64,000 nucleotides of DNA from positions 1-64,000 of the forward strand of contig JAAFKA010000005.1 of NCBI GenBank assembly GCA_013299115.1. The letters run 5' to 3'. Below, piece by piece: positions 10,388 through 32,364 of this stretch; position 1 is the first letter of the stretch, and each line of letters opens with the position of its first letter. The notes under the pieces were generated by a model. The model saw nothing but the letters and a program-made list of their open reading frames with translations. It had not been told where the DNA came from and ran no database searches. Position numbers and translations under genes: made by a program. The DNA comes from Cytophagales bacterium. GTDB taxonomy: Bacteria > Bacteroidota > Bacteroidia > Cytophagales > Thermoflexibacteraceae.

Positions 10388-13300
10388 CTATTTATTTTTC
10401 GCAAGCTGTTTCGTTACGGCTGCGTCTATGTCATTTGCCAATTTTTGAAAATACCTATTCAACAACCTTTCTTGTGGGGCTGGCACTTCTGCCAACTCGT
10501 CAAAAGGCATCAGCTTGTCTTTTCGCAACAAATCTGCAAAGTCATATTCACTTTGATAGGTTTTGAAAAACTGCATAGCTTTCAGATTCTCGTCATTGAA
10601 AAAACTACATTCTCTTAGCAAAATAGGCACAATCAAATAGCCTTCATTTTTTCGTTTGTCTAACATCTTTTTCAATTCATCTGCCATACAATAATGTGAA
10701 CCCAAAAACATAGGGCTAACCAACAAAATACCGATAGAAGAACCTTCAAGGGCATCTTGGATTGTTTCATTCCAATCATCACCAATAGCAATTTCTTTGT
10801 CTGTCCAAACCTCGCCAAACTTGTTTTTCGTACTTTTGAGGTAGATTTTTAGTCGCAGTTCCATAATTTGGCGAAGGTTGCGGTCTGCACTGCAATAGGA
10901 AATGAAAATGTTGTTTTTATCAACTTTTAATTTTTCCTCCTTCGGCTTTTCCTCCACTTTATTTTCCTTTGGTTTTTCGCCTTGTGGCAAAGGTACTGGC
11001 TTAGCATCGGTTTTTCTCGTTGCCTTGTCAAAATGCGAATTGATAAAAACAACTACATTCTGTTTAAAAATGCTGTTTTTTTCGCCATCAACAAAACGGG
11101 TGCGTAGTTGCGAATAAGTGGCTTGATTAGCCCCAAAATGATAATTGTTTAACTCCGAAAACACAGCACCTAATTGGTCTTCGTCTATCAAACTTAATAA
11201 TTCTTGCTTGGTCATAAAGTTGTGGTTTTCTATTTCCTCAAAACTGTTACCTATCGGGTGGCTCGCAGCCACCCGATAGGTAGTTTCCTCAAAACTATCA
11301 AATTTGCTCGACATTCCAAATCTGAGAAAAGACATTTCTTTGTCCCTACGTATTACCTTTACCTCATACTCTAAAAAATTATAGCCTAACAAAACATCAT
11401 CTAACAAAGGTCTAATAGGCACAAATTTAAAACTTTCCTCACACCGTATTTCATAAACCTTATTATTCAAATATTTTATCAATGTATTGTACTTATACAA
11501 TTCGGGTTTTTCACTTGGGCTGCACACCTCACAATTACAAGGCACTTTTAGAACAGGCTGTTGAGTTTCGTCAAAATTATAGTAACTGTTAATGGTTTGG
11601 ATTTCGTTGCTAATCACTGCCAACAAATCTTTTCGTTGCAAACCCACCACTCGTATTGTTATCGTAGGCACTTTGTTTTTGTAAGTTTCTGTTACAAAGG
11701 CTTTTGTGTCGGGGGTGTAATGTTTGGGGGCAAAAATAACACCTTCTTTCCACACAATATTGTCTTCGCCTATCCACGTATGTAACCGAACTATCAAACG
11801 CCAAAAAATACCGTGCAAAGGAAAAGAATAATCAAACTGCACTTGCAAATTATGGGCAAAGTTCCAATCATACGCAGGTGCTTTGGCAGAAAGTAATTGA
11901 GGCATCACATACATTTCGTTTTGCTGATAACACAACTCAAATTTTTCTATGATTTTCAACAAAAACAAGTGCATTTTTTCATAACTGCCTTCATATTTGG
12001 GCTGTTCCCACAGGTTTTTGGCATCTTGGGCAGAAAATTGTCCTTTGTTCATAAAATCTATCAATTCATACACAGCTTTTGTAACCCAAGTGGGCTGCAA
12101 AAAGATTTTGTGCTGCAAAAAATCATCTTCTTTGTAGTACAACAATACGCCCAAATCGTGGAGATATTGCCCCAAATCTTGCTGGCGTAACTTTTCGGGT
12201 ACATTGTGTTGCTCGCAAATTTCTTGGTATTTTTCTAAGGAAATATGGGCTTGCGTTTTGCACTCCAACGCCTGCCGAACTGCCAACCAATCGACAGGAA
12301 AAGGTCTTTGCATAGTTTCCAATGCCGAAAAATGAGTTTTGATAGCCTCCTCCAATTTATCTAAACCCGAATTGTCTGCCAAGTCCACCTGAAAAACACC
12401 CCGAATATTGCTAAATTGGAAGTCGGGCAATTCTTTTTTGCGTTTGTCTTTTTCGTTCTGCACAATCAGCACTGGACTATTACCACCCAAAAGTTTTATT
12501 TTTTCTAACCAATAGTTAAAATCAGTGTCCTCTTTGCGGTTGTCGGTCAAGAGAATATACAGCGAATTGCGGGTAAGAAAAAAACGGTGCGTATTTCTGT
12601 AAATTTCCTGCCCACCAAAATCCCAAATATTGGCGGTATAGGTCTGTTCTTTGTGCGGAAACTGCCATTTTCTGATAGCCAAGCCATGCGTAGTGGGCTG
12701 TGTAGTCAATACATAACCTCTATTCATTAGTTTCTCTGCCAAACTTGTTTTGCCCGCCTCACCTTCGCCCACTATCAAGAGTTTTGCCTCATACAAAGGT
12801 TTGCCTTTTTTCTCCTCCAAAAATCTGCGAATTGCCTCCTTGCCTTCTTTGATTACTTCTATTGGTACATCTGAAATGGGGTTGCCATAAAGATTGATGC
12901 CTCCTTTAAGTAAATAAAAATCATCATCCCATTTAATGGCTAAATCAGTATTTAATAAAAATTCAGGAAATAAAACAACTTTGTTATCACTTGCATCAAC
13001 ATTTGTCAAATTAGGTAAATGCTGTAAAACAGAAATATCTGAAACTTGATTATTTGGAAACCATAATCTTATTAACTTAGCCAAATGCCTCAATACAGAA
13101 ATATCAGAAACTGCGTTTGAACCAAAATATAGCTCTGTTAAATTAGGTAAATACTCTAAAATAGAAATATCAGAAACTTGATTCTCCCAAAAAGATAATG
13201 TATCTAACCTTGATAGGTAGCGTAAAACTGAAATATCAGAAATTTGATTACCACCAAAGTTTAAATTAGTTAGCTTCTTTAAGAGTTGTAAAGCAGAAAT

Positions 13301-14350: not shown

Positions 14351-14664
14351 TAAGCCCCCAGCCCCAAAGGGGAGTTTGATGGGGTGTTTTTTTTGCTAAG
14401 ATAAGAAGTTTTTTTGAAAAAAACCTTATAAGGTCTTTAAGACCTTATAAGGTTCGAGTTTTTTGTTTCTTTTAGCAACAGCGTTGCGTGCCGTTGGTAG
14501 CAAAAGCAAATGTATAATTGTGTGTAAGCACCAGCGGTGCGTACCAAGCCAGACAAGGTACGCACCGCTGGTGCTTAGAAAATAAACCCTTATTTGTGCT
14601 ACCGACGGCATCGCCTCTACGAGGCTGGAAAAAATGTTCTGAAAAGGTATAATTTTGATTTTTG

Positions 14665-14754
14665 TCAATGAAGAATATCCTCACTATTTTCAGTTTCAGT
14701 GAGTTCAAAGCCTAAAATTTTTTCTATTTGGATTATTTGTTGTGGTTTTTGCAT
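14665..14754 (-). pseudogene. 29-codon stub copy of the LRR-ROC-COR-TIR gene start
   Basis: Starts MQKPQQIIQIEKILGFEL and continues TETENSEDILH before a stop. It matches the real gene (NETENRDDILN) with a few substitutions, then diverges into repeat sequence. Confidence 0.8.
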
Positions 14755-15086
14755 GGTGTGTAGCCCCCAGTTAAGCCCCCAGCCCCAAAGGGGAGTTTTG
14801 ATGGGGTGTTTTTTTTTGCTAAGGTAAGAAGTTTTTTGAAAAAAACCTTATAAGGTCTTAAAGACCTTATAAGGTTTGAGTTTTTTGTTTCTTTTAGCAA
14901 CAGCGTTGCGTGCCGTTGGTAGCAAAAGCAAATGTATAATTGTGTGTAAGCACCAGCGGTGCGTACCAAGCCCGACAAGGTACGCACCGCTGGTGCTTAG
15001 AAAATAAACCCTTATTTGTGCCACCAACGGCATCGCCTCTACGAGGCTGGAAAAAATGTTCTGAAAAGGTATAATTTTGATTTTTG

Positions 15087-15176
15087 TCAATGAAGAATAT
15101 CCTCACTGTTTTGAGTTTCAGTGAGTTCAAAGCCTAAAATTTTTTCTATTTGGATTATTTGTTGTGGTTTTTGCAT
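15087..15176 (-). pseudogene. Second 29-codon stub copy of the LRR-ROC-COR-TIR gene start
   Basis: Same as the stub at 14665-14754 with one Glu-to-Gln change (TETQNSEDILH, stop). It stops at the same point, so the two stubs were copied as part of the array unit. Confidence 0.8.
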
Positions 15177-15504
15177 GGTGTGTAGCCCCCAGTTAAGCCC
15201 CCAGCCCCAAAGGGGAGTTTGATGGGGTGTTTTTTTTGCTAAGATAAGAAGTTTTTTTGAAAAAAACCTTATAAGGTCTTTAAGACCTTATAAGGTTCGA
15301 GTTTTTTGTTTCTTTTAGCAACAGCGTTGCGTGCCGTTGGTAGCAAAAGCAAATGTATAATTGTGTGTAAGCACCAGCGGTGCGTACCAAGCCAGACAAG
15401 GTACGCACCGCTGGTGCTTAGAAAATATACTCTTATTTGGACTACCAACAGCATCGCCTCTACGAGGCTGAAAATAAAAGTAAGTTTTTTTGTTTTTTTC
15501 AACC

Positions 15505-20270: not shown

Positions 20271-20317
20271 TAATACATGGTTTGTTATCAGGTAACCCAA
20301 AAAAAGTAGTTGAACCT

Positions 20318-20350
20318 AATTATCCGACACCTTTGAGGTGTTGGATAATT
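20318..20350. repeat. 33-nt hairpin, TTATCCGACACCT family
   Basis: 15-base arms (AATTATCCGACACCT) with loop TTG and one mismatch. Two relatives lie inside the kinase gene at 24019-24089. It follows pepA and may act as its terminator. Confidence 0.85.
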
Positions 20351-20540
20351 CTGATAATCAGATACTTAGTACTTTAAATATTATCGATTATTTAAGTCTA
20401 ACTACTTACTTACTTGCTTTGCTACTCTTTTACTTTTAACCAATTCAATTTTTTTGTGAAAATTTAACAGGCAAAACTACCAAACACCGCAACAATTCAC
20501 GAAATTCGCCAATTATTTTCTCATTTTGATTGGTCTTATC

Positions 20541-22589: not shown

Positions 22590-22612
22590 GAAATTATTTT
22601 GTGTAGTATTTT

Positions 22613-22724
22613 CTGTAGAACGGACTTTAGTCCGTTTTTTTAGAGGTTTCAGCAAATAAATAGGTATTTTGAATCAAAATCTACATTTTCATCAACAAGA
22701 AACGGACTAAAGTCCGTTCTACAG
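22613..22724. repeat. MITE-like inverted repeat, CTGTAGAACGGACTTTAGTCCG termini
   Basis: Terminal inverted repeats of about 24 bp, identical apart from the interior (AACGGACTTTAGTCCGTTT against its complement), enclose about 64 bp of unrelated sequence. Same termini as 7922-7985 and 17084-17211, with different interiors. Confidence 0.85.
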
Positions 22725-22767
22725 ATACTGCATTTTTCACCAAGTATTTTTGTTTTAAATTCTACAC

Positions 22768-22824: not shown

Positions 22825-25800
22825 ATGCGTGTAGGTCTTTTTCTGTTCGTTTGTTTTTGGCTGTTGCTGCAATCCTTCGCAGATTTGCAAGGGCAAACAG
22901 TCCGATTCGAGCATATAGGTACAGAGGAAGGGCTGGAAAACCTCGATATTCAGGCTATTTTGCAAGACCGACAAGGCTTTATTTGGGTGGCTACTATGGG
23001 AGGGCTGCATCGTTTTGACGGCTACGGCTGCAAGGTTTTTAAATATGATGCCGAAAGGAAAAATAGCTTGTCGAGTAATTTGGTCTATTGCCTTTACCAA
23101 GATACTGATGGTTTTGTTTGGGTAGGTACAAGATACGGCATGAATAGGCTGAACCCCAAAACTGAAACTTTTACGGCTCATACACACTTTGAAGGCAATT
23201 ATTTGCTCGAAAATAAGGCAATTCGCCACATTTACCAAGACAAGAAAAAAAATTTGTGGGTGTCGGTTTCTGCCGTAGGTTTGCTGCATTTCGATTGGCA
23301 AACTCAACGGTTTGACAAATTTTTTTCGCCTCAAAATACCAAAAACCCATTGTTGGCTTACCCTAAGTTTTTTTATCAAGACCGCAAAGGAAACCAATGG
23401 CTGGGCAGTGATGGCGGGTTGGCACTTTTTTTTGAACACACCCAACAATTTGTAAATCTCCCTACCAACTTGCTCCCCAGTCAATATATAAAATGTATTT
23501 TTGAAGACAACGAAAATAATTTGTGGATTGGCACTGATGGCGGTTTGGCACTATTGCCACAAGAGCAACTTCGATTGTTTCAGGCTACGGATACAGCTAT
23601 TTTGCAATTTCAGCGGTTTGCAAACAGCCCTAACAACAAATATTCTTTGAGTAACAACTTTGTAAAAGCTATAAATCAAGACCAAGAGGGTAATTTATGG
23701 GTGGCTACAGACAATGGCGTTTCTTTCTTAAACCAAGCAAGACTCAAAAATAAAACCTATTACTTTACCAACTTTGTGCATAATGAAAATGATGAGCAAA
23801 GCCTTTCCAACAATTATTGCAGGACTGTAACCGCAGACCAACAAAATATAATTTGGATTGGAGGCAGCGGAGGCATTAGCAAATATGTGAAAGACAGGTT
23901 TCCATTTCGCCGTTTTCAGCACGAAAAAAACAACCCAAATAGTCTGAACGACAACTATGTACGAGCTATTGCCTGCCAAAAAATATCCAATCCTGCGATA
24001 AAAAGCAACCTAAAATACTTATCAGACACCTACAAGGTGTCGGATAAATTCAAAAAATACTTATCAGACACCTCTAAGGTGTCGGATAAATTGAGTGCTG
24101 CCCCCGACTCGTTGGAGATTGTGTGGGTAGGCACAAACAGCGGTGTTGCCAAATTTGACAAAACGAATAAGCAATTTTCTTTTCTTTCCATTGCAGAGGG
24201 TTTGCCGTTTAATCAAGTAAAGGCTTTGGCAACAGACCAACAACAACAACTTTGGATAGGCACAGACAAAGGTTTGGCGGTGCTAAACACCAAAACCAAC
24301 CAACTCAAAACTTATTTGTACGACAAAGACAAGCCACATAGCATACCAGATAATGCTATCAACTGTATTCACGTGGACAAAGAGGGTGTGGTTTGGATTG
24401 GTACGTGGAAAGGCGTGGTAAAATATGAACCTGCAACCGACAATTTTTCGGAGGTTTATCCTCAACTCGAAGACAGGGTGCAGTGTATTTTGAAAGACTC
24501 GGACAATGAACTCTGGATTGGCACAAGAGATGGGCTGATTCGGTTGCAAAACGAAATTGCCTCTACTGTTTATACTCACGAAACCAACAACACCAAAAGT
24601 TTATCGAGCAGCTATATTAATTGCTTATTGCAAATCGAAAAAGGAAAATTGTTGATAGGTACTTCCAATGGCGGACTCAGCCGTTTCGACAAAAAAACAG
24701 GTGTTTTTGAGCATTTTACGGAGGCAGACCATTTGCCCAACAACAACATAAACTGCATGATTGCGGGCAACGACAATAGACTTTGGTTAGGCACAGACAA
24801 AGGACTTTCACGCATAGATTTCGACACCAAACGGATTCGCACTTATTTAATCTCCGATGGATTGGCAGGGGCTTCTTTTTCGCACTTGGCAGTCGATAAA
24901 TTTTCAAATGGCGAGGTTTTTATAGGTACGTTGTCGGGTTTTAGCAGTTTTGCACCCAAAAGAATAAAAGACAATTCGTACAGTCCGCCTGTTTACGTAA
25001 CCAATTACAGTTTGTTCAGAAAAGTGGTAAGCATAGACCAACAAAAAGCCTTGACCCATAACTTACTGTTCGACAGGTACTTAACTCTCAAACACAGCGA
25101 CAAAATGATAACCTTCGACTTCATTGCCTTAGATTATCGCAATCCGCACCAGATTAAATATGCCTACAAATTAGAAAATTTTGATGACGATTGGCACTAT
25201 ACCAATGCCGAAAACCGCCAAGCTACTTACACCAATTTGCCCGCAGGCAACTACAAATTTATGGTAAAAGCCACTAATAACGATGGTTATTGGAGTAGAA
25301 ACGAATCGACTACATTGGTGGAAGTAAAACCTCCCTATTGGAAAACGTGGTGGTTTTTGCTCTGTTGTGGGTTGGCAATCAGTGTGGTGTTGTATGGTTT
25401 CCAATATTGGCGAGAAAAAGATTTGATAGCCACCCAAAATAGATTGGAAAGAGAAGTAGAGGAAAGAACAGCCGAATTGGTGGCAGAAAAAAATAAATTG
25501 GAAGATGCCAAAATAGAAATTTCTATCAATTTGGAGGAGATAGAAGCCCAACGCGACGAAATAGAAGCCCAACGCGACAACATAGCCCGCATGAACTCTG
25601 CCTTAGAAATACAAGTGCAAGACCGTACACAGAAATTGGTGGAAAAAAACAAAGAACTCGACCAGTTTCTCTACCGAGCTGCCCACGATTTGAAGGGACC
25701 CTTAGCCCGAATGAAAGGCTTAGTCAATTTGGGTATCATAGAAACACAAGACGAAATAGCCGTAGAGTATTTTGAAAAATTGGATTCTTTGTCCGTAGAA

Positions 25801-26316
25801 ATGTTGCAATTACTGAACCGCATACGCCAAATTCACGATATTAAAAACAAAAAAGTAGTTTCAGAAGTAGTTGATTTTGAGCAAATTATAGAAAATATTT
25901 TGTATCATGTCATTCGCAAGCACAATTTGGCTATGGTCAAAATCCAGACTGATACCTCTCCCCTACCCTACTTTACCTCGGACAAAGAACTGCTGACCCA
26001 ACTCCTTCGCAATTTGATAGAAAATGCTGCCGCCTATGTGGACTATTCCCAAAAAAGCAAAATCAAAATTTCGGTGCTACCTTGCACACCTCTCACAGAC
26101 GAACAGCAAGGCGTAAAAATTATGGTCGAAGACAACGGCATAGGCATAGACCCACAGGTGCATGAAAGAGTTTTTTCCATGTTTTTTGTCGGCACTTCCC
26201 TCTCCAAAGGCATGGGTTTGGGCTTGTATGAAGTGAAACTCATAGCCGAAAAACTAAACGGACAAGTTAGTTTTATATGTCAAGACGGGTGGACAAAATT
26301 TTGGGTGGTGGTGTGA
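22825..26316 (+). CDS. Beta-propeller sensor histidine kinase (no receiver domain)
   Basis: 1163 residues. A signal peptide (LLLQSFADLQGQ) leads into a periplasmic two-component-regulator propeller with many blades of the type GNLWIGTDGGLALL, then a Y_Y_Y domain (about 760-835), one membrane helix (WWFLLCCGLAISVVLYGFQY, about 842-862), a coiled coil containing a repeated EIEAQRD, a HisKA domain with the phosphorylated His at about 954 (RAAHDLKGPLARMKG) and an ATPase domain (NLIENAAAYV, VEDNGIGID, GMGLGL near 1129). Unlike typical Bacteroidetes hybrid sensors it lacks a receiver and a DNA-binding HTH, and no response regulator gene is adjacent. Residues about 399-422 derive from two palindromic repeats inside a propeller blade. 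Ligand unknown. Confidence 0.92.
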   Translation: MRVGLFLFVCFWLLLQSFADLQGQTVRFEHIGTEEGLENLDIQAILQDRQGFIWVATMGGLHRFDGYGCKVFKYDAERKNSLSSNLVYCLYQDTDGFVWVGTRYGMNRLNPKTETFTAHTHFEGNYLLENKAIRHIYQDKKKNLWVSVSAVGLLHFDWQTQRFDKFFSPQNTKNPLLAYPKFFYQDRKGNQWLGSDGGLALFFEHTQQFVNLPTNLLPSQYIKCIFEDNENNLWIGTDGGLALLPQEQLRLFQATDTAILQFQRFANSPNNKYSLSNNFVKAINQDQEGNLWVATDNGVSFLNQARLKNKTYYFTNFVHNENDEQSLSNNYCRTVTADQQNIIWIGGSGGISKYVKDRFPFRRFQHEKNNPNSLNDNYVRAIACQKISNPAIKSNLKYLSDTYKVSDKFKKYLSDTSKVSDKLSAAPDSLEIVWVGTNSGVAKFDKTNKQFSFLSIAEGLPFNQVKALATDQQQQLWIGTDKGLAVLNTKTNQLKTYLYDKDKPHSIPDNAINCIHVDKEGVVWIGTWKGVVKYEPATDNFSEVYPQLEDRVQCILKDSDNELWIGTRDGLIRLQNEIASTVYTHETNNTKSLSSSYINCLLQIEKGKLLIGTSNGGLSRFDKKTGVFEHFTEADHLPNNNINCMIAGNDNRLWLGTDKGLSRIDFDTKRIRTYLISDGLAGASFSHLAVDKFSNGEVFIGTLSGFSSFAPKRIKDNSYSPPVYVTNYSLFRKVVSIDQQKALTHNLLFDRYLTLKHSDKMITFDFIALDYRNPHQIKYAYKLENFDDDWHYTNAENRQATYTNLPAGNYKFMVKATNNDGYWSRNESTTLVEVKPPYWKTWWFLLCCGLAISVVLYGFQYWREKDLIATQNRLEREVEERTAELVAEKNKLEDAKIEISINLEEIEAQRDEIEAQRDNIARMNSALEIQVQDRTQKLVEKNKELDQFLYRAAHDLKGPLARMKGLVNLGIIETQDEIAVEYFEKLDSLSVEMLQLLNRIRQIHDIKNKKVVSEVVDFEQIIENILYHVIRKHNLAMVKIQTDTSPLPYFTSDKELLTQLLRNLIENAAAYVDYSQKSKIKISVLPCTPLTDEQQGVKIMVEDNGIGIDPQVHERVFSMFFVGTSLSKGMGLGLYEVKLIAEKLNGQVSFICQDGWTKFWVVV
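24019..24089. repeat. Two in-frame palindromic repeats inside the kinase gene
   Basis: Hairpins at 24019-24047 and 24061-24089 have arms TTATCAGACACCT / AGGTGTCGGATAA (one mismatch) and loops ACA and CTA. They are 42 bp (14 codons) apart and encode YLSDTYKVSDKFKK and YLSDTSKVSDKL. The intergenic relative at 20318-20350 shares the arms. Confidence 0.9.
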
Positions 26317-30369: not shown

Positions 30370-32364
30370 TTACATTTCCACAATTTTTATTTCCTCCTCA
30401 CTTAACCCATATAAAGCATAAATCAACTTATCTATTTGATTTTCAAGGGTTTGTGTTTGCGATAAAACAGATTTTGCATTTTTTTGTTCTGCTGAAAACA
30501 CATCAAAAAAAGCATATTGTTCTTTCATTGGAATTGTAATTTTTTGCTTTTCTAATTCTAATAAAAATTCTCTTTCACTTAATAAATGCCATTCTGTTAT
30601 TTTTTTTGAGATTTTTATATTGCTAAAATTTCTCAATAAAAAATTAGAAAACTTACTTTGTAAGGCTTTTAATTCTTTGTTGAGTAATAATATTTGTGTA
30701 ACTTTTTCTATGAAAACTTGTTTTTGCGTTTCACTCAAAAAAGGAATAGGAACATTAACCATTTTATTGTAATCTAATTTGTTGCGACCTTTTTCGTCTG
30801 CATTGCCATAAGCCACAAAATGAAGTTTTTTGTAAAACTGAAATACTTTTGAATTGAGAAAAGCCGACAAAAATACATCTGCATTAGAGATAATAAAGCA
30901 AGAGTTATTGACATAAAAACCCTCCACATCATAGTAAAAATAATGATTGACTGCGGTGTAGATATAAATAATTTTGGGTTGTTCAAATTTATCGTAATAA
31001 TCACAAGCCCGCAAATTATAATGTGTTTTGCCTTTGTCCTGCCTTACTGCCAATTCCGCATCAAATTGTTGTAAATGTTCATAAATTGCAAAGTAATTTT
31101 CGGGCGAAATTTCGGTGTCAAAGCCTGTGTTAATCAAAAAACTTTCGTTTTTATCCTCAATTTCCCACCGTTTAATGGCTGTTGGTTGAGCATAGGGTTT
31201 TATCAACTCTGCACTTCGAGCATCTTTGGCTATCAAAGCTGCTTTGGTATCTTTGTCTATAATAAAAGCCTTGTTTAAAGCCGTTTTAATGCCCAAATAA
31301 ATTGCATTATTTGTATATTCTTCGAGAGAAATCACTTTTACGCCTGTTTTTCCTAATATTTTATCGAGAATAATTTGTGCCTTTGGGCTTGCAAAAACCC
31401 ATTCTTCTTCGTTCAAATTACCCTGGTTAATGCTTAATTTTTTGGTCAAATTTTTAGCAAAATCTTCTATTTTTCCGTCTGGTAACAAGGCTTTTGTAAC
31501 AGGAAAATAAGCAAAATTTGTAGTTTCTTTGGTGGTTATTGCATTTTTAAGCACAATGATTTGAGGCTCTGTGCTGGCATCTGCAAAAATTTTGAGTTCA
31601 AAAAAATCTACAATGTGTTGAATATCATAGCTTTGCAATAGTTTTCGCAAACCTAAACCATATTGTGTTTTAAACCATTTGTTCGGAGTAATAAATGCCA
31701 AAAGTCCATCAGCTTGCAACATTTCTAAGGCTTTTGCATAAAAATAAACATACAAATCTGCTCCACTATGATACACATTTGCATATCTTTTGGCATAATA
31801 TTTTTTCTGCTTTTCGCCCAATAATTCCTGCCTCACATAAGGTGGATTTCCTAAAATGATTGTAAAACCATCATCGCCAAACCTTACAAGGTTTTCAGAA
31901 CCTTGTAAGGTCTTTTTGAATACTTGTGGAAATTCAGTCTGCCAATTAAAAGGTTGTTCGGCAATATTTTTGTCGTCTATCAACGAATTTCCAACCTTGA
32001 TATTATCGCAATAAAAACCACTTCTTTCAAAAAGTTGTTGCTTACAAATACTTACAGCTTGTTCATCTAAATCTACACCAAATAAATTATTTTCGATAAT
32101 AAATTTTGCAACTCCTTCATTATCAGGAAAATAGCTTTGGTATTGTTGAAATAAAAAATCAAAACTTTCTATCAAAAAAGCACCTGCACCACAAGACAAA
32201 TCAAGAACAGTAATTTGTTGCAATGCCTCAAAATGATTTTCGGCACTTGCTAAATAATTTCCTATGGTTTCTGTAATGATGTATTTTGTTATAAAATTTG
32301 GGCTATAAAAAATGCCTTCCTTTTTGCGAAAGTCCGCAGCTAAAGATAATTCGTAAGTTGTCAT
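30370..32364 (-). CDS. Type IIG-like adenine-specific DNA methylase, tandem paralogue lacking the nuclease half
   Basis: 664 residues from the ATG at 32364 (MTTYELSLAADFRKKEG); a longer frame to 32400 reads through a hairpin and is unlikely. SAM motif I is VLDLSCGAGAFL (about 53-64) and the N6-adenine catalytic motif is NPPYV (about 174). The rest resembles Eco57I-type methylase/specificity regions. Compared with the neighbour at 32437-35586 it lacks the N-terminal nuclease domain, but the last 36 residues are almost the same (NQIDKLIYALYGLSEEEIKI). It may methylate a second site or be a decaying duplicate. Residues about 151-161 come from a palindromic insertion just before the catalytic motif. 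Confidence 0.85.
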   Translation of the reverse strand: MTTYELSLAADFRKKEGIFYSPNFITKYIITETIGNYLASAENHFEALQQITVLDLSCGAGAFLIESFDFLFQQYQSYFPDNEGVAKFIIENNLFGVDLDEQAVSICKQQLFERSGFYCDNIKVGNSLIDDKNIAEQPFNWQTEFPQVFKKTLQGSENLVRFGDDGFTIILGNPPYVRQELLGEKQKKYYAKRYANVYHSGADLYVYFYAKALEMLQADGLLAFITPNKWFKTQYGLGLRKLLQSYDIQHIVDFFELKIFADASTEPQIIVLKNAITTKETTNFAYFPVTKALLPDGKIEDFAKNLTKKLSINQGNLNEEEWVFASPKAQIILDKILGKTGVKVISLEEYTNNAIYLGIKTALNKAFIIDKDTKAALIAKDARSAELIKPYAQPTAIKRWEIEDKNESFLINTGFDTEISPENYFAIYEHLQQFDAELAVRQDKGKTHYNLRACDYYDKFEQPKIIYIYTAVNHYFYYDVEGFYVNNSCFIISNADVFLSAFLNSKVFQFYKKLHFVAYGNADEKGRNKLDYNKMVNVPIPFLSETQKQVFIEKVTQILLLNKELKALQSKFSNFLLRNFSNIKISKKITEWHLLSEREFLLELEKQKITIPMKEQYAFFDVFSAEQKNAKSVLSQTQTLENQIDKLIYALYGLSEEEIKIVEM
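31881..31911. repeat. In-frame palindromic insertion in the methylase paralogue
   Basis: 31-nt hairpin: 13-base arms ACCTTACAAGGTT / AACCTTGTAAGGT, loop TTCAG. The paralogue protein reads EFPMPMNEGGFTLIVGNPPY, while this one has about 14 extra residues (FKKTLQGSENLVRF) at that point. Related hairpins occur at 14422-14454, 44946-44982, 50249-50279 and 58399-58425. Confidence 0.85.

Follow-up and report, generated by a model that had tools for sequence, protein, structure and literature searches.

Intragenic REPs are already known in other phyla. The GTAG/CGTC REPs occur in frame in many genes, where dimers or groups that encode 20–30 amino acids are common and tRNA synthetases are among the targets, and different REPs are present at about the same recB site in two Xanthomonas species (Di Nocera et al. 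2013, PMC3733652). Among the TnpA-REP subclasses described by Quentin et al. (2018, PMC6006769), 2.4 and 2.6 include RAYTs (REP-associated tyrosine transposases) from Bacteroidetes. In these descriptions, subclass 2.6 has the motifs NH[LIV]H and YIH[QN]NP and atypical hairpins with copies elsewhere, and subclass 2.4 has NH[IFV]H and YIxNNP, with REPs often located within the transposase gene itself. A similar behaviour is described for the Rickettsia palindromic elements (RPEs), several families of which lie in frame in unrelated genes. In yeast, template switching is reported to homogenise the arms of inverted repeats in coding sequence, producing perfect complements in one event (PMC8604942).

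The insert described here is best classed as a member of the same known kind as the intragenic REPs. It lies in a sensor kinase gene within the window, which is the whole 64,000-nt stretch of Cytophagales DNA that was analyzed. Homologs of the host kinase with known structures are the Bacteroides hybrid two-component sensors 4a2l and 3v9f; phage records were also searched, and no match resembling the kinase gene was found in them. The relevant features of the window are the following.

22825 to 26316, plus strand: two-component sensor histidine kinase of 1163 aa (Reg_prop propeller, Y_Y_Y, HisKA, HATPase_c), host of the insert
24010 to 24114, plus strand: residues 396-430, both hairpins and a short tail, in a predicted loop without counterpart in the same-genus ortholog (tblastn against L017)
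24017 to 24049, no strand assigned: translated palindrome copy 1 (F1 or GACACCT family), YLSDTYKVSDK, in the kinase ORF
24059 to 24091, no strand assigned: translated palindrome copy 2, YLSDTSKVSDK, in the kinase ORF
20304 to 20408, plus strand: MITE-like element of 105 bp between genes, ending in AAGTAGTT and AACTACTT, with the same hairpin inside (20320-20348)

The repeat unit, ATTTATCNGACACCTNNNAGGTGTCNGATAAAT, is 33 nt long and almost perfectly palindromic, with arms of 14-15 pairs and a 3-nt loop. In the kinase it takes the form ACTTATCAGACACCT-NNN-AGGTGTCGGATAAAT and codes for YLSDTxKVSDK. The two 29-nt cores (24019-24047 and 24061-24089; 33 nt with the outer pairs) are 42 bp apart, and both are in the frame of the kinase ORF, so that each contributes 11 extra amino acids. 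Both arms are identical between the copies, which differ in the loop and in a few bases after the unit (95% identity). The presence of two translated hairpins inside a propeller blade, which had been proposed from the sequence, is thus real. Six hairpin matches (three sites on both strands) were observed in the window, with none expected from the shuffled window, and a chance origin of the palindromes is ruled out by such shuffles together with reversed-pattern controls.

The original prediction interpreted the pair as a recent insertion and duplication. In the closest kinase ortholog, from one other species of the genus (42-46% identity), tblastn aligned NPATQQG-ELLWVGT with the NPAIKSN and EIVWVGT of the window, between which the window has 35 further residues; this ortholog is too distant to place the exact insertion junction. 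The L202 genome, from a more distant family member, yielded no close orthologs. The same insert in orthologous kinases, which would have spoken against the prediction, was not seen in the nearest ortholog. An AlphaFold2 model of the kinase, built from ten sequences, has a confident propeller (mean pLDDT 83). In it, most of residues 392-427, which separate the strands 381-388 and 429-436, score below 50 (at 392-397 and 411-427). Since the modelled insert is a low-pLDDT loop in a confident propeller, the guess that it would occupy a surface loop holds. That the inserts are added sequence in a sensor blade is therefore supported at the level of sequence comparison and prediction. The word "recent" fares less well: its support is the near-perfect palindromes and the 95% identity between copies, and the ortholog is too remote to date the insertion.

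The predicted feature is meaningful as well as real. What had not been anticipated is how widely the unit occurs: it is associated with RAYTs, repeated across the genome and present in many genes. Exact copies of GACACCTNNNAGGTGTC number 78 in the genome (5.5 Mb in 74 contigs), and allowing one mismatch raises the count to 104; the reversed pattern gives 0 and 1. Elsewhere, there are 4 copies in the same genus and 26, 3 and 2 in other genera of the family, and a stricter version of the palindrome was found in only 3 of ~85,000 species genomes, all of them Cytophagales or Bacteroidetes bins. Gene context was read in 1.75 of the 5.5 Mb, around copies and along three contigs, with ORFs called mechanically. 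At two or fewer mismatches this portion has 117 sites, comprising 54 in a MITE context, 34 intergenic without a MITE and 29 in ORFs. The MITE context, TAAGTAGTT...AACTACTTA, has 43 good copies in the same 1.75 Mb. The third copy in the window, noted earlier at 20318-20350 as the same hairpin between genes, is just that, but its carrier is different, namely the 105-bp MITE-like element.

A search with a RAYT protein identified several RAYT genes in the genome, four of which are flanked by palindromes.

C28, 37163 to 37744: RAYT-1, with GACACCT palindromes on both sides, the copy at C28:37028 being ~120 bp away
C11: RAYT-2, the second RAYT, flanked by TATCGGGTGGCT palindromes (GGTGGC family)
C16: third RAYT, flanked by ACTTTCCAAGT palindromes
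C74: fourth RAYT, flanked by AACCTTATAAGGT palindromes

Two to three palindrome copies lie upstream of RAYT-1 and three downstream. Against NCBIfam REP_Tyr_transpos, the four proteins give matches with E values from 3e-12 (RAYT-1) to 2.5e-15, under the curated cut-off; RAYT-1 scores below both the Pfam and the NCBIfam cut-offs, and a comparison by sequence with solved structures gave no detectable match for it. The four share NHFH and a YIH-NP motif, which reads YIHQNP in RAYT-1 and RAYT-2 and YIHNNP in RAYT-3. RAYT-1 and RAYT-2 combine YIHQNP with NHFH, where PMC6006769 gives YIH[QN]NP and NH[LIV]H for subclass 2.6. It is RAYT-3, and not RAYT-1, that has the features given there for subclass 2.4: NHFH, YIHNNP and two palindromes of its own family within its ORF, which are in frame. 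The accounts of these two subclasses that were consulted do not mention REPs inside other genes; here they are found in many.

The likeness to the GTAG/CGTC REPs consists of short in-frame palindromes in many genes, with a tRNA synthetase as a target. However, the palindromes here have no GTAG or CGTC head (neither tetranucleotide was seen beside in-gene or RAYT-flanking copies), the host is a Cytophagales-type bacterium, and several families coexist, four of them with an identified cognate RAYT. The resemblance to RPEs is one of behaviour only; these elements come from Rickettsiales, and the accounts consulted connect them with no RAYT. We found no description of intragenic RAYT REPs in the Cytophagales lineage in a literature search that largely excluded subscription journals.

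The unit is a short palindrome, in the 20-40 nt range, with many dispersed copies that flanks, on both sides, a RAYT with HUH and tyrosine motifs, as is characteristic of RAYT-associated REPs. Because it is dispersed, flanks RAYT-1, is in frame in about 15 genes and is missing from the kinase ortholog, we interpret the kinase inserts as REP elements of a RAYT/TnpA-REP system that landed inside a gene and are translated, with a probability of roughly 0.85. The association with RAYT-1 suggests that this transposase probably spreads the hairpin. As an HUH/Tyr single-strand nuclease, RAYT-1 could cut and move the hairpin as single-stranded DNA, and insertion would leave no target duplication. The frame is preserved by insertion because 33 nt equal 11 codons. 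Survivors would be only those insertions in tolerant loops and in the frame of the soluble peptide LSDTxxVSDK, the alternatives being a stop or a Cys/Arg-containing peptide. The second copy in the kinase may have arisen by tandem duplication or by a second insertion, given that nearly all differences between the copies fall in the 3-nt loop.

REPs are named as extragenic; here, REP families with identified cognate RAYTs lengthen many proteins by peptides of 11-12 codons, among them alanyl-tRNA synthetase and an NFACT/RqcH-type protein. In the latter (L074:6548-6666), two families contribute three translated palindromes to a stretch of 120 bp, and further in-gene targets are a LysE exporter and a Roc-COR protein. 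The genome is therefore a good system in which to ask about the frequency with which genes acquire RAYT repeats and about the tolerance of the proteins concerned.

The freshest part of the analysis comes from comparing sister species, whose in-gene palindromes can be unlike at corresponding codons, in one case in one arm only. In alanyl-tRNA synthetase, each of the two sister species has its own perfect 36-nt palindrome at the shared site; the two are 47% identical, the flanking DNA is 85-95% identical, and each palindrome is a member of a family dispersed in its own genome. In an N6-methyltransferase-like gene, the genome under study (G000) and one paralog of the sister species (G001-a) have left arms with 0/18 differences and right arms with 8/18; between the paralogs G001-a and G001-b, the left arms differ at 8/18 and the right arms at 2/18. 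In terms of two arm families, G000 has X on both sides, one G001 paralog has Y on both sides and the other has X on the left and Y on the right. Another genus also has the insert at the corresponding position of the Roc-COR gene, where a C-to-G change in one arm is matched by a G-to-C change in the other.

We consider it possible, at somewhat less than even odds, that in-gene REP palindromes are rewritten in place, arm by arm, into other palindromes, with the result that sister species have unlike palindromes and unlike peptides at the same codons. At up to three mismatches, G000 has no second copy of the palindrome in its N6-methyltransferase-like gene. This speaks more for one arm having been rewritten from the other, in either direction, than for recombination with another copy. 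If arm-by-arm rewriting is true, in-gene REPs would keep supplying coordinated changes of several residues, and the arm-by-arm intermediate would bear on the old puzzle of how REPs change while palindromy is kept. A scan of 1.75 Mb of G000 for further chimeric palindromes gave none that was convincing; in both hits an AT-rich arm was paired with a weak match. In the alanyl-tRNA synthetase of a more distant relative (L228), a short direct repeat, CAATCCAACAATC..., is located at the site of the two species' palindromes, and the loop therefore seems to accept several kinds of repeats.

These differences bear on the strongest of the alternative explanations, that the palindromes are copied or rewritten at replication by template switching between hairpin arms or repeats, with the RAYT as a bystander. 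Such a process would account for the gene that differs in a single arm (0/18 versus 8/18) and for a resulting palindrome that is nowhere else in the genome, and arm homogenisation is documented in other organisms (PMC8604942, PMC8794818); the case described in PMC8604942 is alike in that arms within a gene become complementary, with yeast inverted repeats there and REP-like units here. As an account of the whole pattern it is nevertheless unlikely, since template switching alone does not explain how a 33-nt unit would reach dozens of new sites, and the pairing of each of the four RAYTs with its own flanking family is a strong association that speaks against the bystander view.

The reading frame of the copies can be considered next to the REP interpretation and to its remaining rivals. 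In ORFs of at least 200 codons, and away from the start, 24/24 copies are in one frame (LSDTxxVSDK) in 17 ORFs, 2 of which are weak matches, probably due to chance, leaving ~15 independent clear cases. If both open frames were tolerated equally, this bias would have a probability of 0.5^15 = 3e-5. A stop interrupts one of the palindrome's three frames in every case, another is open in nearly all and reads YQTPxRCRI, and the third gives LSDT; because the unit is palindromic, the same kind of peptide results in either orientation. The spacings between copies within a gene (36, 39, 42, 45, 45, 87 and 102) are all multiples of 3. Together, the single frame and these spacings form the pattern expected of selection on 33-nt insertions. 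Tolerance in any open frame was dropped as an explanation, the only two copies in another frame being at most 22 residues from a called start and probably extragenic.

The single frame could also be taken to mean that the insert is a functional sensor loop under selection for its peptide, in ligand binding or signalling, with the DNA palindrome incidental, and one copy common to two genera in the Roc-COR gene would agree with this. We regard that reading as very improbable: the same peptide is found in unrelated proteins, the DNA is palindromic both in genes and between genes, the nearest kinase ortholog is without the insert, and the frame bias is accounted for by a stop in one frame and by the nature of the peptide in the other. 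Uptake sequences, too, are numerous and favour one reading frame within genes, and by analogy the palindrome might be a DNA-uptake or protein-binding signal built point by point in existing sequence; this is extremely improbable, as the in-gene copies in the kinase and in a methyltransferase are extra residues relative to homologs and not substitutions.

Two of the three other RAYT-flanking palindrome families also occur in genes of the window, and a further hairpin pair precedes the kinase.

11248 to 11282, minus strand: palindrome of the GGTGGC family, which flanks RAYT-2, in a 1203-aa ORF, reading YRVAASHPIGN
31881 to 31911, minus strand: palindrome of the ACCTTRYAAGGT family in an adenine-specific DNA methyltransferase, reading KTLQGSENLVRF
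22612 to 22725, no strand assigned: two ACGGACTTTAGTCCGT hairpins, inverted and 56 bp apart, REPIN-like, between the upstream gene and the kinase

Peptides of the other in-gene families include LSGGxxPPDK, TLQGFxNLxRF, FPSLxDLES and TPQGLKALAEL; the palindrome at 11248-11282 is read in a frame (YRVAASHPIG) that differs from the LSGGxxPPDK frame used in other genes. The methyltransferase palindrome is a 13-residue addition, with a gap at that place in same-genus homologs, and these ~13 residues of the ACCTTACAAGGT family are directly ahead of the NPPY motif. In two relatives (L231 and L232), the same methyltransferase loop has other palindromic or repeat DNA. The ACGGACTTTAGTCCGT hairpin also adjoins a RAYT in the sister genome (L263). 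Finally, AACCTTATAAGGT palindromes at 14442-15300 are ~420 bp apart with the same 30-nt sequence after each, which suggests a larger tandem unit.
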